From positions 1 to 64,000 of the forward strand of contig QJYK01000276.1 of the NCBI GenBank assembly GCA_003248075.1: a stretch of DNA of 64,000 nucleotides. Reading direction: 5' to 3'. The stretch is from Gemmatimonadota bacterium (lineage in GTDB: Bacteria; Gemmatimonadota; Gemmatimonadetes; Longimicrobiales; Gaopeijiaceae). Made by a program: the position numbers and the translations under genes. Below are positions 7,117 to 56,158 of the stretch, in pieces (the first letter of the stretch is position 1; every line of letters starts with the position of its first letter). Below the pieces are notes generated by a model. It ran no database searches. It was given only the letters and a program-made list of their open reading frames with translations, and was not told where the DNA came from.

Positions 7117-8277
7117 GTGGTGCTCGCCGTGGCCGCGGCGAGCCTCAGCTGCAAGGGAGAGCCCGATCCTCCTGGATGGGTGGTCCGCGATAGCGCGGGC
7201 GTCCAGGTCGTCGAGTCCTCCTCACCGCAGTGGGGAGACGTGTCGCCGTGGACGGTGGATACGGTGCCCGTCGTCGACCTTGCGGCCTCCGGGAGCGGAT
7301 CACCGCACGACTTCATGAGCGTGCGAGACGTGCGCCGCCTGACCGACGGCCGCCTCGTGGTGCTCGACGAGGGGCTCGACGAGATCAGAGCCTTCGGTCC
7401 GGATGGGGAGTTCGTGACGTCACTGGGTCGCGAGGGTGACGGACCCGGTGAGTTTCGGCGTCCCCAGCGGATTCTACCGTTCCGAGGCGACTCGATCGTC
7501 GTTTGGGACTTCTGGCTGCTCCGCATCACGGTTCTCGGCCCCCAGCTCGAGCTCGGGCGCGTGGAGAGTGCGCGCGATGCCGGGGTGCGGCTGTCGCGGG
7601 ATCTGTTCTGGAGTGGCGACTCGACGTTCATCGGCACGGAGTACAGGATCGATCCCGACGATCAGCTGCTCGGCCACTACCGACGACCGATGCAGATAAG
7701 CCGGGTCTCGTTCGAATCCGGTCGCCGCGACTCGCTCGCCATGCTCGCGGGTTTCGAGGGGTACTCCTTCGAGCGCGGTGACGCCCGGCCGCCATTCGCC
7801 AAGTCCAGCGTCGCGGCGTTGAGAGGCACCCACGTGGTCGCTGGCGACGCTGATGCGATGGAGTTCCGGATACATGACTCGTCAGGTGCGCTGAGGCAGA
7901 TCGTCCGCGTTCCCGAGTACGACCTTTCCATCCCCCCGGGTCAGCGAGCGCGAGAGCTGGAGGCTCTGCTACAGCCCGGAGCTCCGCCGGTGCTCCGCTC
8001 CGTGAGGGACCAGATGGCGGTGCCGGACAAGAGGCCGGCGTACTCGACCCTGCGTGTGGACGCACTGGGTTATCTCTGGGCCTCCCGCTACCGCGCGGTC
8101 GGCAGCTTCGATGGGGGGGAGGTTTGGGAGGTCTTCTCACCCGAGGGCGCCTGGATGGGATCCGTCGGGACGCCACCACGCTTCGAGGTGTTCGACATCG
8201 GCTCCGATTATCTCACCGGCGTCTTCAGAGACGATCTCGATATCGAACACCCGCAGGTGCTGTCCCTGAGCCGGTAG
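7117..8277 (+). CDS. Six-bladed beta-propeller secreted or lipoprotein-like protein
   Basis: The 386-residue protein begins with a short hydrophobic stretch ending in Cys (AVAAASLSCKGE), which suggests a signal peptide, possibly lipidated, though the lipobox is imperfect. The rest resembles the 6-bladed beta-propeller proteins common in Gemmatimonadota: WVVRDSAGVQVVESSSPQW, repeated blades with LTDGRLVVLDEG, IRAFGPDGEFVTSLGREG, and GPGEF. No enzyme motif is visible; such proteins are usually of unknown or binding function. GTG at 7117 is the earliest in-frame start seen and no clear Shine-Dalgarno precedes it, so the true N-terminus is uncertain. Confidence 0.7.
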   Translation: MVLAVAAASLSCKGEPDPPGWVVRDSAGVQVVESSSPQWGDVSPWTVDTVPVVDLAASGSGSPHDFMSVRDVRRLTDGRLVVLDEGLDEIRAFGPDGEFVTSLGREGDGPGEFRRPQRILPFRGDSIVVWDFWLLRITVLGPQLELGRVESARDAGVRLSRDLFWSGDSTFIGTEYRIDPDDQLLGHYRRPMQISRVSFESGRRDSLAMLAGFEGYSFERGDARPPFAKSSVAALRGTHVVAGDADAMEFRIHDSSGALRQIVRVPEYDLSIPPGQRARELEALLQPGAPPVLRSVRDQMAVPDKRPAYSTLRVDALGYLWASRYRAVGSFDGGEVWEVFSPEGAWMGSVGTPPRFEVFDIGSDYLTGVFRDDLDIEHPQVLSLSR

Positions 8278-8292
8278 GGTAGGAGGGAAAGC

Positions 8293-8341
8293 ACGAGCCC
8301 GCCCGGCCAGCCTCTTGGGCATTCCCCCCGGACGGGCTCGT
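8293..8341 (+). terminator. Long hairpin after the propeller gene
   Basis: The 14-base arm ACGAGCCCGCCCGG (8293-8306) pairs with CCGGACGGGCTCGT (8328-8341) with one mismatch, around a 21-base loop, 16 bases after the stop codon. It probably ends the upstream transcript. No long T-run follows, so it may act as a Rho-independent-like or RNA-stabilising hairpin. Confidence 0.5.
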
Positions 8342-8763
8342 ATTCCTCACGGCATTGGGGGCCGCATTCCCACGTTTGTCTCCAGGTCGGCCGGCTCGCA
8401 AGGCTCTTGGGCCTCCGCTGGGGCACGGGACACCGCCGCGGGCACGGTGCTCGGGTGAGGTGGCCGCGCTCCCGGTGCGGTGCGGAGACGACACATCCTG
8501 GGTGGCGCGCACCGTGCCGGGACCGCGGTAGCACCGAATCGGCGAGCCTGGCTGCCGGGCTGGCCCGACACGGAAACGCGACACCCCGGTGGACCCGCCC
8601 CGAGGGCCGATCTGCTCGAACGGCGGCCTGAATGCGCCACCGGTAGGCGTACCGACCGGCAAGAAGTGCCTCCGGGGGGACCGCCGGTGCCGCTGGGGTC
8701 GGACAGGTGGCTGGAAAGCGCGAACCGGCCCGTCGTGTACGTGGCGGCGTCCGGGATCACGTA
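8342..8763. other. Non-coding stretch with an interrupted inverted repeat
   Basis: About 420 bases without a convincing gene; open frames here have shadow-like composition. The main structure is an interrupted inverted repeat: CCGCGG plus GCACGGTGC (8436-8450) facing GCACCGTGC plus CCGCGG (8509-8528). GCACGGTGC is itself a palindrome around its central base, so the same short dyad occurs twice, centres 67 bases apart and some 250-330 bases upstream of the sigma-54 site. This is compatible with paired activator sites or a folded RNA, but neither is shown. Confidence 0.35.
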
Positions 8764-8779
8764 TTGGCACCCCTATTGC
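8764..8779 (+). promoter_or_regulatory. Sigma-54 (-24/-12) promoter
   Basis: TTGGCAC at 8764-8770 followed by five bases and TTGC at 8776-8779 matches the sigma-54 consensus TGGCACG-N4-TTGC except for one base after TGGCAC. The spacing of ten bases between the GG and GC doublets is exactly right. Predicted transcription start is near 8791, giving about a 125-base leader to the small gene at 8915. The window also encodes an NtrC-type activator (54797-56158), though nothing proves that it acts here. No sigma-54 gene is in the window. Confidence 0.6.
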
Positions 8780-8914
8780 GTCAGGGGCCAGCGATCAATG
8801 CGGTATCCAGGTGCTCGTCTCCTCTCACCGCGTGTGATGAGGAGTGAATCAGGCCCCCGCACGGCCACTGCCGCGGTGCCGCTCGCGAGCAGGGCATTCG
8901 CCGAAGGGGGTAAC

Positions 8915-9151
8915 ATGATCGAGTACGCCGCAACGCTGTATACCGGCATCCTGTACGCCGGCCTGGTCATCGCCGTGATCTTCGCCACCTACCTCGTCGT
9001 GACCACGCGTGCGGACCGCAAGCGGGGCTTCGCGGCGGGCCTGGACATGGTGGAAGGGGGCGGTAAGGCCCTGTCGCGGGAGCGGACCGCGCCCGGCGCC
9101 GACCGCGAAGCGACGGCCGATGAGGAGAGGGCGCGGAGGGGCGCCGCCTAA
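8915..9151 (+). CDS. Small single-pass membrane protein, unknown function
   Basis: A 78-residue protein: short N-terminus, one long hydrophobic helix (YTGILYAGLVIAVIFATYLV, about residues 8-27), then a basic stop-transfer segment (TRADRKRG) and a polar, charged cytoplasmic tail. ATG at 8915 is chosen over longer upstream frames because of the GGGGG ribosome-binding stretch five bases before it and because only this part looks protein-like. It lies downstream of the sigma-54 promoter at 8764 and is bracketed by two strong hairpins. I do not recognise the family. Confidence 0.6.
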   Translation: MIEYAATLYTGILYAGLVIAVIFATYLVVTTRADRKRGFAAGLDMVEGGGKALSRERTAPGADREATADEERARRGAA

Positions 9152-9186
9152 GAACAGACGGGCTCGGTCTGCCTCTTTGACTTGCA

Positions 9187-9221
9187 GCGGCAGGCACTTC
9201 GATCGCTGAAGTGCTTGCCGC
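9187..9221 (+). terminator. Strong hairpin after the small membrane protein gene
   Basis: GCGGCAGGCACTTC (9187-9200) and GAAGTGCTTGCCGC (9208-9221) form a 14-pair stem with one mismatch (or G-U pair) and a seven-base loop. It sits 36 bases after the small gene and 58 before the M24 peptidase start. It likely separates the two units; no T-run follows. Confidence 0.5.
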
Positions 9222-9278
9222 TCCATGCGCCCGGCCGCCAGCTTGCCGTGCCCGGACCTCGGAGGAGGGAGAGCGGCG

Positions 9279-10691
9279 ATGTGGATGGCACAGCGGACGG
9301 GCGCCCCGGGAGCACCCGTCGTGGTCGGACTGGTGGCGACATGCCTGGCAGCCTGTGCTTCCCGGGACGAGCTGCCCTCAGGGCTCAGGAGCATCGACGG
9401 CCCCGCGCCGGCGATCGAGACCGCCGAGTATGCCGACAGGCGGTCCGCGATACTCGGGAAGCTCGACGACGGCATCCTCCTGGTGCATGCGCGCCCCGCC
9501 GAAAAAGGGATGGAGCAGTGGGGCTTCGTTCAGGACCCGACGTTCCTGTATTACAGCGGCCTTTCGGAAGTCCCGGGCGCCATCCTGGCGCTCGACGGAG
9601 TCACGGGACGCGTGACCCTCTTCCTGCCGCCAGCGCCCGAGTCCTTCGGCATGCGGGTAGAGGGGCTCATCCCGCTGCCGGAGCCCGAGACGGCCGCGGT
9701 CCTCGGGCTCGACTCGGCCGAGCCCTGGTCCGAGTTCGTGCCCTGGGTGGAGGGTCGGCTCGGTGAGGGTGTGTCGGCCCTGTATGTCGACGAACCCAGA
9801 CGACCCGAGGCCACGGGGGTGCCGCCAGGGATGGAGCCCGTCGCGGGCGATCGCACGCTGTGGCGGACGGCGCTTCACGAGGCCTTTCCACGGGCGCGGA
9901 TCATGAGCGCGAAGGAAGAGATCATGGTGCAGCGGGCGCGGAAGTCCGCCGCAGAGGTCCGCGTTCTCGAGCGTAATGCCCACATGACGGTGGCGAGTCT
10001 GCTCGCGGTGGCCCGGAGTCTGGAGCCCGGTGCGCGACAGCGGCAGACCGAAGGTGTGATGGTGGCGGCGTGCCTCGAGGAGGGCGGGCAGGGGCCGTCG
10101 TTCTGGCCGTGGACGATGTCGGGGCCGAACGCGCACGTGGGGCAGCTTCCAGGCGCCTTCTACCGTTACGACCAGGGTGACCGCGTGGCAGAGCCGGGCG
10201 AGCTCGTGCGGGTGGATGTCGGGTGCGCCGGGGGGCTTTACGGCGCCGATGTCGGCCGCACCCTTCCGGTGTCCGGCCGCTTCGCGCCGGGCCAGGCCGA
10301 AGCGTGGAACCTCCTGGTCGAGGGATATCGGGCCGGGCTGTCCGCCATCGCCGACGGGGTCCCCATTTCCGAGGTCCGGTCGGCGAGCATCGAGGCCGTT
10401 CGAGCGCGCCTCGTGACCACTGCCACCGAGAACAGCCGAGCCGCCGCGGAGGCGATCCTGGCCGGCGGAGAAGCCACCTGGCACATCCACGGTGTGGGGA
10501 TCGACAGCGGGGAAGATCTGCCGGACGTGCTACGCGCCGGCATGGTGCTGGCCTACGAGCCCGGCTTCTCGCTGGGCCCGGACGCCTACTACCTCGAGGA
10601 CATGATCCTGGTCACGGACGGTGGCCACCGGGTCCTCAGCGAGGGCCTTCCCTACACGGCCGACGAGATCGCCGCGGTCATGGGGCACTGA
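9279..10691 (+). CDS. Peptidase M24 (Xaa-Pro aminopeptidase-like) lipoprotein
   Basis: Probably removes N-terminal residues before proline, outside the cytoplasm. The start at ATG 9279 follows GGAGGAGGGA and gives an N-terminus with a signal peptide ending in the lipobox LAAC (residues about 20-23), so it is predicted to be lipid-anchored. An aminopeptidase-P-like N-terminal domain (DDGILLVHARPAEKG, FLYYSGLSEVPGAIL) precedes the pita-bread domain. All five metal ligands are visible: D in VRVDVGCAGG, D in YGADVGRT, H in WHIHGVGI, E in LAYEPGF and E in YYLEDMILV. Length 470. It stands as its own unit between two intergenic gaps. Confidence 0.87.
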   Translation: MWMAQRTGAPGAPVVVGLVATCLAACASRDELPSGLRSIDGPAPAIETAEYADRRSAILGKLDDGILLVHARPAEKGMEQWGFVQDPTFLYYSGLSEVPGAILALDGVTGRVTLFLPPAPESFGMRVEGLIPLPEPETAAVLGLDSAEPWSEFVPWVEGRLGEGVSALYVDEPRRPEATGVPPGMEPVAGDRTLWRTALHEAFPRARIMSAKEEIMVQRARKSAAEVRVLERNAHMTVASLLAVARSLEPGARQRQTEGVMVAACLEEGGQGPSFWPWTMSGPNAHVGQLPGAFYRYDQGDRVAEPGELVRVDVGCAGGLYGADVGRTLPVSGRFAPGQAEAWNLLVEGYRAGLSAIADGVPISEVRSASIEAVRARLVTTATENSRAAAEAILAGGEATWHIHGVGIDSGEDLPDVLRAGMVLAYEPGFSLGPDAYYLEDMILVTDGGHRVLSEGLPYTADEIAAVMGH

Positions 10692-10843: not shown

Positions 10844-11467
10844 ATGCGGCTGTACGAGATCGTCTACATCCTCGATCCGGCGCTCGAAGAGGGCGCCGTG
10901 ACCTCGAAGCTGGAGAAGTTCCACGCGCTGGCCACTGCCAGCGGCGGTGAGGTCTCCGCGGTGGACCATTGGGGCAACAGACAGCTCGCCTACCCCATCG
11001 CCAGGCACAAGGCCGGCTACTACGTCGTCGCACAGTTCACGGCGGCAGCCGAGGCGCTTCCGGAGTTCGAGCGACTCCTGAAGCTCGACGACGAGGTTCT
11101 CCGATATCTGCTCGTGCTCAACGAGGGTGAACCCACCTCCGGGCAGTCGATCCTGGCCGAAATCACCCGCCCCGCCAGCGATCGCGAGGAGGACGAGGAC
11201 GAGGAGGAGGAAGAAGAAGAGGACGACGATTCGCCGCCCCAGTTCCAGGGGGGGCGCGGTCGGCGCCGTCGGATGGAGGGACCACCGATCCAGCTGCTCA
11301 ACTACAAGGACGTGAGCACGCTTTCTCGCTTCCTCACCGAGTCCGGGAAGATTCTCCCCAAGCGCACGACAAAGGTGTCTGCCGGGTTTCAGCGACAGCT
11401 CGGGTCGGCGGTGAAGAGGGCTCGATACCTGGCGTTGATCCCCTACACCAGGCGGTACGAGGGCTGA
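10844..11467 (+). CDS. rpsF-rpsR: Fused 30S ribosomal proteins S6 and S18
   Basis: One open frame encodes both proteins, which normally bind each other on the 30S platform. Residues 1-100 are S6 ([15 protein letters not shown], then [22 protein letters not shown]). Residues 115-129 are an almost pure Asp/Glu linker. Residues about 136-207 are S18: a basic lead ([11 protein letters not shown]), then [39 protein letters not shown]. The S18 part has no Cys, so it is the zinc-free type. Usual order is rpsF-ssb-rpsR-rplI; here ssb is absent and the two ends are joined. An internal ATG at 11273 (Met144), after a run of seven G, could give free S18 by internal initiation. The gene starts after GAGGGA-GTCAC. 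Confidence 0.9.
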
Positions 11468-26729: not shown

Positions 26730-27857
26730 ATGGCAGCCGCGAAGAAGGACTTCTACGAGACCCTCGGGGTGCCGGAGAAGGCGAGCCAGGAGGACATCAA
26801 GAAGGCCTACCGGAAGCTGGCGAAGCAGCATCACCCCGACGCCAACCCGGGAGATGGCGCGGCGGCCGAGCGGTTCAAGGAGATCGGCGAGGCGTATTCG
26901 GTCCTGTCGGATCCGGCGAAGCGCAAGCAGTACGACCAGATGCGCAAGCTCGGTGCCTTCGGGTTCGGCCGCGGGGGGCCCGAGCGGACCGCGCGTCCCG
27001 GTGGCGGCTTCCAGGCCGAGCCGGGAGTCTCCTTCGAGGATCTGCAGGGCGGCTTCGGCAGCTTCTCGGACCTCTTCAGCTCCCTCTTCGACCTGGGCAA
27101 GAAAGGGTCCGGTCCCCAGCGCAAGCGTGAGCCCGCCCGGGGCCAACACGTCGAGTACGTCGTGGAGGTTCCGTTCCTGACCGCAGCCCGCGGTGGGAAG
27201 CTGCCGATCGAGGTGGCGATCACGGAGGACTGTGCCACCTGCGGCGGGGACGGGGCGAAGCCGGGCACGCCCCTGCGGACGTGCAAGGAGTGCGGTGGCT
27301 CGGGGACGGTCTCCTTCGGCCAGGGAGGGTTCGCCGTGAAACGACCGTGCCCGGCCTGCTTCGGCCGCGGCAAGCTCCCCGAGACCCCCTGCGCCTCGTG
27401 CGAGGGACGTGGGACGGTGCGACAGCGTCGCAAGATCGTCATCAACGTCCAGCCCGGGGTGGAGACCGGGTCGCGCGTGCGGCTCTCCGGTCAGGGGGAG
27501 CGGGGGAAGGGAGGGGGGCCGGCCGGAGACCTGATCATCACCTTCAAGGCGATGCCGCACAGGTTCTTCCGCCGAGAGGGGCTGGACATCCACGTCACCG
27601 TCCCGATCAACATCGTCCAGGCGACGCTCGGCTCGAAGATCCGCGTGAGCACGATCCGGGGGAAGAAGGTCGTTCTGCGTATCCCGGCGGGCACCCAGAC
27701 CGGTACCAAGTTCCGTATCCGCGGTCAGGGCATCGAGAAGGGCGATCGGACCGGAGACCAATACGTCGAGGTCAGGGTCGAGGTGCCGGATCGGCTGTCC
27801 GACGAGGAGCAGAAGGCGATGGAAGAGTTTGCGGAGGCCTCCGGCCTGAAGCACTGA
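26730..27857 (+). CDS. dnaJ: Chaperone DnaJ
   Basis: Type I J-protein partner of DnaK, 375 residues. The J domain (1-70) carries HPD in [10 protein letters not shown], followed by a Gly/Phe-rich region (75-130). Four zinc-binding CxxC repeats follow: [22 protein letters not shown] and CASCEGRG. The C-terminal substrate-binding domains contain [19 protein letters not shown] and [11 protein letters not shown]. The last 86 bases overlap the convergent mnmA frame on the other strand. Confidence 0.97.

Positions 27858-54797: not shown

Positions 54798-56158
<1,361 letters not shown>

Follow-up and report, generated by a model that had tools for sequence, protein, structure and literature searches.

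In the stretch of Gemmatimonadota DNA analysed here (64,000 nucleotides, referred to as the window), a non-coding gap is bounded by a propeller-like gene that ends at 8277 and by a 78-codon gene at 8915-9151. A sequence resembling a sigma-54 promoter lies within this gap, and the distance from the motif (8765-8779) to the ATG of the small gene is 135 nt. Downstream, a strong hairpin and a gene encoding an M24 aminopeptidase follow on the same strand. The features of the locus are listed in Table 1.

Table 1. Features surrounding the putative sigma-54 promoter, with positions given in the window.
Feature	Position	Strand	Basis
Hairpin 3' of the upstream propeller gene, probable end of upstream transcription	8293..8341	+	fold of 8288-8360, z -1.66
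Sigma-54 (-24/-12) promoter, high confidence	8764..8780	+	no second exact match in the window; preference in spacing and position across the genome
Predicted transcription start (~8791) and predicted 124-nt leader	8791..8914	+	projected from C(-12) at 8779
Orphan 78-aa protein with one N-terminal predicted transmembrane helix (~residues 11-29), then a charged tail of 47 residues	8915..9151	+	codon score, hydropathy
16-bp hairpin with a 5-nt loop and no T-run, 5' of the downstream gene; may end or weakly attenuate the transcript or be a processing site	9186..9222	+	fold
M24/AMP_N aminopeptidase with a lipoprotein-like N-terminus (lipobox LAAC), possibly co-transcribed	9279..10691	+	Pfam; start and lipobox read from the sequence

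The sequence at 8764-8780 on the + strand, TTGGCACCCCTATTGCG, contains an exact -24 element TGGCAC (8765-8770), preceded by a T at 8764, then five bases and an exact -12 element TTGC (8776-8779). Compared to the sigma-54 consensus, TGGCACnnnnnTTGCW, the site departs at a single position, the G at 8780, in agreement with the original prediction, which had described TTGGCAC-N5-TTGC with exact -24/-12 spacing and one consensus mismatch. The accompanying statement that this is the only such intergenic site in the window also held, as exact TGGCAC-N5-TTGC was found at 8765-8779 (+) only when both strands were searched. With up to one mismatch allowed, one other site was found (26944-26958, - strand), giving 2 matches in the window compared to 2.4 expected from shuffled sequences. 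The first-order Markov expectation for the exact pattern was 0.058 per window on both strands; since chance gives ~0.06 matches per window, a lone match is moderately unlikely and by itself constitutes little proof.

Across the whole genome (5.6 Mb), the motif occurred 15 times at the correct spacing of five bases, compared to 2, 3, 2 and 0 times at spacings of 3, 4, 6 and 7 bases, respectively (binomial p 1.3e-6). The wrong spacings totalled 7 matches, or ~1.75 per spacing, and the first-order Markov expectation for the exact motif was 5.1 per genome. A reversed-pattern control (9 vs 15; 107 vs 22) was dropped as background and the wrong spacings were used instead, because the reversed motif contains CpG and so differs in make-up. 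Two of the 15 matches are one site, counted twice where two contig ends overlap by 142 bases, leaving 14 physical sites, and all 14 lie 36-156 nt 5' of a correctly oriented gene. The gene caller placed 13 of these before genes, while the 14th was placed by hand reading, which showed a 487-codon exported-protein frame that lies 38 nt downstream and starts like a signal peptide. In contrast, only 1/7 wrong-spacing sites was in promoter position and 5/7 were inside genes (Fisher 1.8e-4, computed with 13/13 sites and the 14th excluded), and the chance rate of promoter position was 2.85% of window positions with both strands counted. These data show that, in this genome, a motif with exact -24/-12 elements can be relied on as a promoter. 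The hand-read frame (L019:1-1462, - strand) encodes an exported-type protein that is rich in W, Y and G and then in S, A, R and P, and it was missed by codon statistics.

The same preference was found in relatives, in a weaker form. When nine relatives were pooled, 48/141 sites were at spacing 5 (p 7e-5), and spacing 5 was not the leading one for five relatives (G003, G011, G013, G014 and G015). Among the listed spacing-5 sites of six relatives, 25/40 were in promoter position, 10/40 in called genes and 5/40 in gaps without a close gene, compared to 2/20, 15/20 and 3/20 (elsewhere) of wrong-spacing sites (Fisher 9e-5 for promoter position). The 40 sites comprise all listed spacing-5 sites of G005, G007, G009, G012 and G014 and five of G019 among the matches listed, leaving out G003, G011, G013 and G015 (13 sites), and the 20 controls were 9/14 from G012, 3/3 from G005, 5/16 from G007 and 3/19 from G014. 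Because some spacing-5 sites in relatives are not in promoter position and five relatives show no lead of spacing 5, a lone exact match can be due to chance. Among 40 promoter-positioned rows from the clade, in which two tandem sites of the genome itself (contig C126) were entered twice, C was the most frequent base at the position of 8771 (15) and G at that of 8780 (13), as in this site, and A/T was not clearly preferred after TTGC (19/40 rows). One target of this genome with carboxypeptidase-regulatory-like repeats (L008) resembles targets in three relatives (L126; L132, L135, L136 and L137; L155), and an outer-membrane-like target family likewise recurs (L141, L144 and L149). The promoter class therefore recurs across the family, though the 78-aa gene does not.

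A lack of rpoN had been named among the findings that would refute the original prediction; the gene is present in this genome, on contig C224 (PF04552, 216.4 bits). It was found in 38/39 genomes when this genome and its relatives were searched; none was found in G013, a genome that is 77% complete. The genome also contains 18 sigma-54 activator-domain matches above 200 bits, and the G[AS]FTGA motif was present in 14/17 extracted activator frames. With rpoN, the genome-wide excess at spacing 5 and all 14 sites in promoter position, the reading of the site as a sigma-54 promoter is well supported. PspF was considered as the activator and rejected, as none of the 10 activators scanned (of the 18) reached any NCBIfam cut-off, including that of PspF. 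A strong activator domain is encoded within the window itself at 55211-55714 (250.8 bits), with its best NCBIfam scores to NtrX, NtrC and AtoC, all under cut-off. Within 200 bases upstream of the 8765-8779 site, there were 2 dyads compared to a shuffle mean of 4.1, that is, not above chance, and no activator site was recognisable there. A palindrome (CGGTA-GGCG-TACCG) at 8641-8654, ~110 nt 5' of the -24 element, is a candidate activator site, though such dyads do not exceed chance frequency.

The 78-codon frame begins with an ATG that has a ribosome site, AAGGGGG, just 5' of it. Its codon score was 0.41 bits per codon, with a GC content by codon position of 0.68/0.54/0.90, and the in-frame stretch upstream (8480-8914) scored -0.06, so that the score rises sharply at the ATG at 8915. 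Only about 1/88 shadow ORFs of 60-110 codons matched this score. The best 19-residue hydropathy was 2.41 at residues 11-29, and of the 47 residues of the tail, 11 are basic and 9 acidic. Up to E 1 the protein matched nothing in Pfam or NCBIfam, a search of the order's 153 other genomes gave no relative at E<=1e-4, and there was no match among solved structures or in genome_contigs or viral_contigs, scans that detect close relatives only. Weak matches in a search of 97 relatives (G023, E 0.0028, with two internal stops; G006, E 0.0042) lay within longer frames and were rejected as chance, and a PHROGs match (E 0.23) was also rejected. The description of the product as an unknown 78-residue membrane protein was thus borne out: it has no family, one predicted transmembrane helix and a coding signal from 8915, and we consider the gene a genuine lineage-restricted small membrane-protein gene.

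The script called 12 target genes of the promoter class in this genome, and a 13th was read by hand. Among them are genes for an NHL propeller, AsmA, a carboxypeptidase-regulatory-like lipoprotein, a transglycosylase/transpeptidase, Hsp20 and a PALP-CBS enzyme. Further ones match an outer-membrane barrel (below cut-off), DUF4402 (just below cut-off) and MbnP (weakly), and the others are a glycosyl-hydrolase-2-like gene with two tandem sites, a lipoprotein-like gene without a family and the 78-aa gene. The two exact sites of the glycosyl-hydrolase-2-like gene (L009/L010, G000:C126:26242-26315) are 59 nt apart, and an inverted repeat with 10-bp arms on the same contig starts 49 nt 5' of the first and 108 nt 5' of the second. 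An N-terminal hydrophobic stretch was found in 8/12 targets of this genome and 17/25 targets of relatives, compared to 22/58 window genes, corresponding to an enrichment of membrane or exported proteins with p 0.066 for this genome and 0.004 when pooled, and 0.09-0.14 when pooled under stricter thresholds. The regulon thus leans to exported and membrane proteins, with modest support. In published comparative work on sigma-54, the targets are described as leaning to lipoproteins and to outer-membrane, cell-wall and secreted proteins (PMC3162934). The envelope theme fits that description but, as the p value depends on the threshold, has only modest support here. The suggestion of a regulated envelope factor accordingly stands in part: the protein is predicted to be a membrane protein and the lean of the regulon is modest and threshold-dependent, while a role in the envelope is still an inference.

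The surroundings of the small gene differ from those in relatives. In the relatives' segments, the flanking pyrophosphatase, M20 peptidase, YchF (8/20) and bS6-bS18 genes are consecutive without the 78-aa or the M24 gene; these two genes were absent at the locus from all 20 segments, and parts of the flanking order were kept in many. One of the 20 segments has a distant propeller at the locus. A stretch of ~4.2 kb containing the propeller, 78-aa and M24 genes is therefore extra in this genome and missing there in relatives. In a DNA comparison of 8270-9300, matches of 33-49 bp in six relatives (E 1e-5 to 7e-4) were scattered over the query and were taken as chance. At 10844-11467 of the window, a single 207-codon frame encodes ribosomal protein bS6 fused to bS18; the match also runs stop-free through both in many members of this family, while in two other families most genomes have separate matches or stops. 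Related bS6-bS18 sequences in named records come from Gemmatimonadota (two labelled Longimicrobiales or Longimicrobium) and one distant Archangium.

From what was computed (the motif, rpoN and the activators, the preference in spacing and position across the genome, the coding character of the gene and its lack of relatives in the searched collections), we infer a transcription start, activator, signal, topology and role for the 78-aa protein as follows, with the promoter-opening steps taken from established sigma-54 biology. RNA polymerase carrying RpoN would bind the -24/-12 elements at 8765-8779, and an NtrC-type enhancer-binding protein would open the complex upon a signal. The transcript would start at ~8791 and either end at the 9186-9222 hairpin or continue into the M24 gene. 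Its 78-residue product would cross the inner membrane once, with the charged tail probably in the cytoplasm, and its most likely role would be that of a small envelope protein with an accessory or stress function. Overall, we assign a probability of roughly 0.8 to the reading that the site is a working sigma-54 promoter whose transcript from ~8791 encodes a 78-residue protein that crosses the inner membrane once; that the promoter at 8765-8779 is genuine is the part held with the greatest confidence.

It is quite improbable that the motif arose in this GC-rich gap by chance and that an unrecognised housekeeping promoter reads the gene. Such matches are expected (5.1 per genome under the Markov model), only 25/40 listed sites of relatives are in promoter position, and with no homologue of the 78-aa protein in the 153 genomes of the order, there is no footprint of the site to compare. 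However, the wrong-spacing background is ~1.75 per spacing against 15 matches at spacing 5, and the sites of this genome are in promoter position in 14/14 cases compared to ~3% of positions by chance. No sigma-70-like site was found in 8200-9400, in a scan that does not cover other Gemmatimonadota promoter types.

A possible, if somewhat less likely, arrangement is that the promoter is real and its main product is an operon of the 78-aa protein and the M24 aminopeptidase (9279-10691), with the small protein as an accessory. The two genes are on the same strand with 127 nt from the stop to the 9279 start, the hairpin between them lacks a T-run, and neither a sigma-70-like nor a sigma-54 site was found between them; however, other Gemmatimonadota promoter types are outside the scan, and the strong 16-bp hairpin (z -2.85 for the fold of 9150-9260, with equal stability in 0/200 shuffles) could end or cut the transcript. 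The same hairpin, at the 3' end, and the failure of every search to find a homologue would also suit a promoter whose product is a non-coding RNA made from 8791-9222, with the 78-codon frame being no gene. This is very improbable, as the codon signal starts with the ATG, GC reaches 0.90 at third codon positions, the frame has a ribosome site 5' of it, about 1/88 shadow ORFs score as high and no Rfam family reached its gathering score. The leader (8791-8914) folded no better than shuffles (z -0.67), and one Rfam candidate, M23 (E 0.072), was rejected with a score under the gathering threshold.

The promoter type is ordinary and the gene behind it lineage-restricted, but the genome-wide evidence is clean. 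The family uses this promoter type at many genes, often those of surface or envelope proteins, and the 78-aa gene is very probably switched on in the same way. Gemmatimonadota have few laboratory strains. The spacing and position test yields a ready list of sigma-54 targets for this little-studied phylum, and an orphan small protein gains a testable regulation. A further idea, which is speculative and rather doubtful, is that sigma-54 has a broad part in envelope upkeep in Gemmatimonadota and that this lineage put a new orphan membrane gene under it within a segment that relatives lack at this locus; if so, the 78-aa gene would be a membrane-stress effector of recent origin or fast evolution. 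As described for known sigma-54 promoters (PMC3162934), the system here has exact elements and spacing, rpoN, many activators and envelope-leaning targets, whereas the lack of a clear A/T after TTGC in the clade and the orphan target set it apart from that description. In the main text of that study (Francke et al. 2011), "Gemmatimonad-" occurs in the reference list only, and we found no sigma-54 regulon study in Gemmatimonadota in the accessible literature pairing "Gemmatimonad-" with sigma-54 or rpoN.

As described in E. coli, pspG is the gene of a small inner-membrane protein and needs sigma-54 polymerase and the activator PspF, and PspG is reported to have two predicted transmembrane helices with both ends cytoplasmic (PMC2763126). 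The 78-aa protein may work in the manner of such small sigma-54-driven membrane proteins, to which it is unrelated; unlike PspG with its two predicted helices, it has one hydrophobic segment and a charged tail, so the likeness is an analogy only. Small proteins with no similarity to it at E 0.01 were found in relatives, namely L130 (87 aa, with a weak Transgly_assoc match below the Pfam cut-off), L158 (51 aa) and L156 (121 aa, DUF2188), and these have a hydrophobic segment and an exact spacing-5 site 51-85 nt 5' of the gene.
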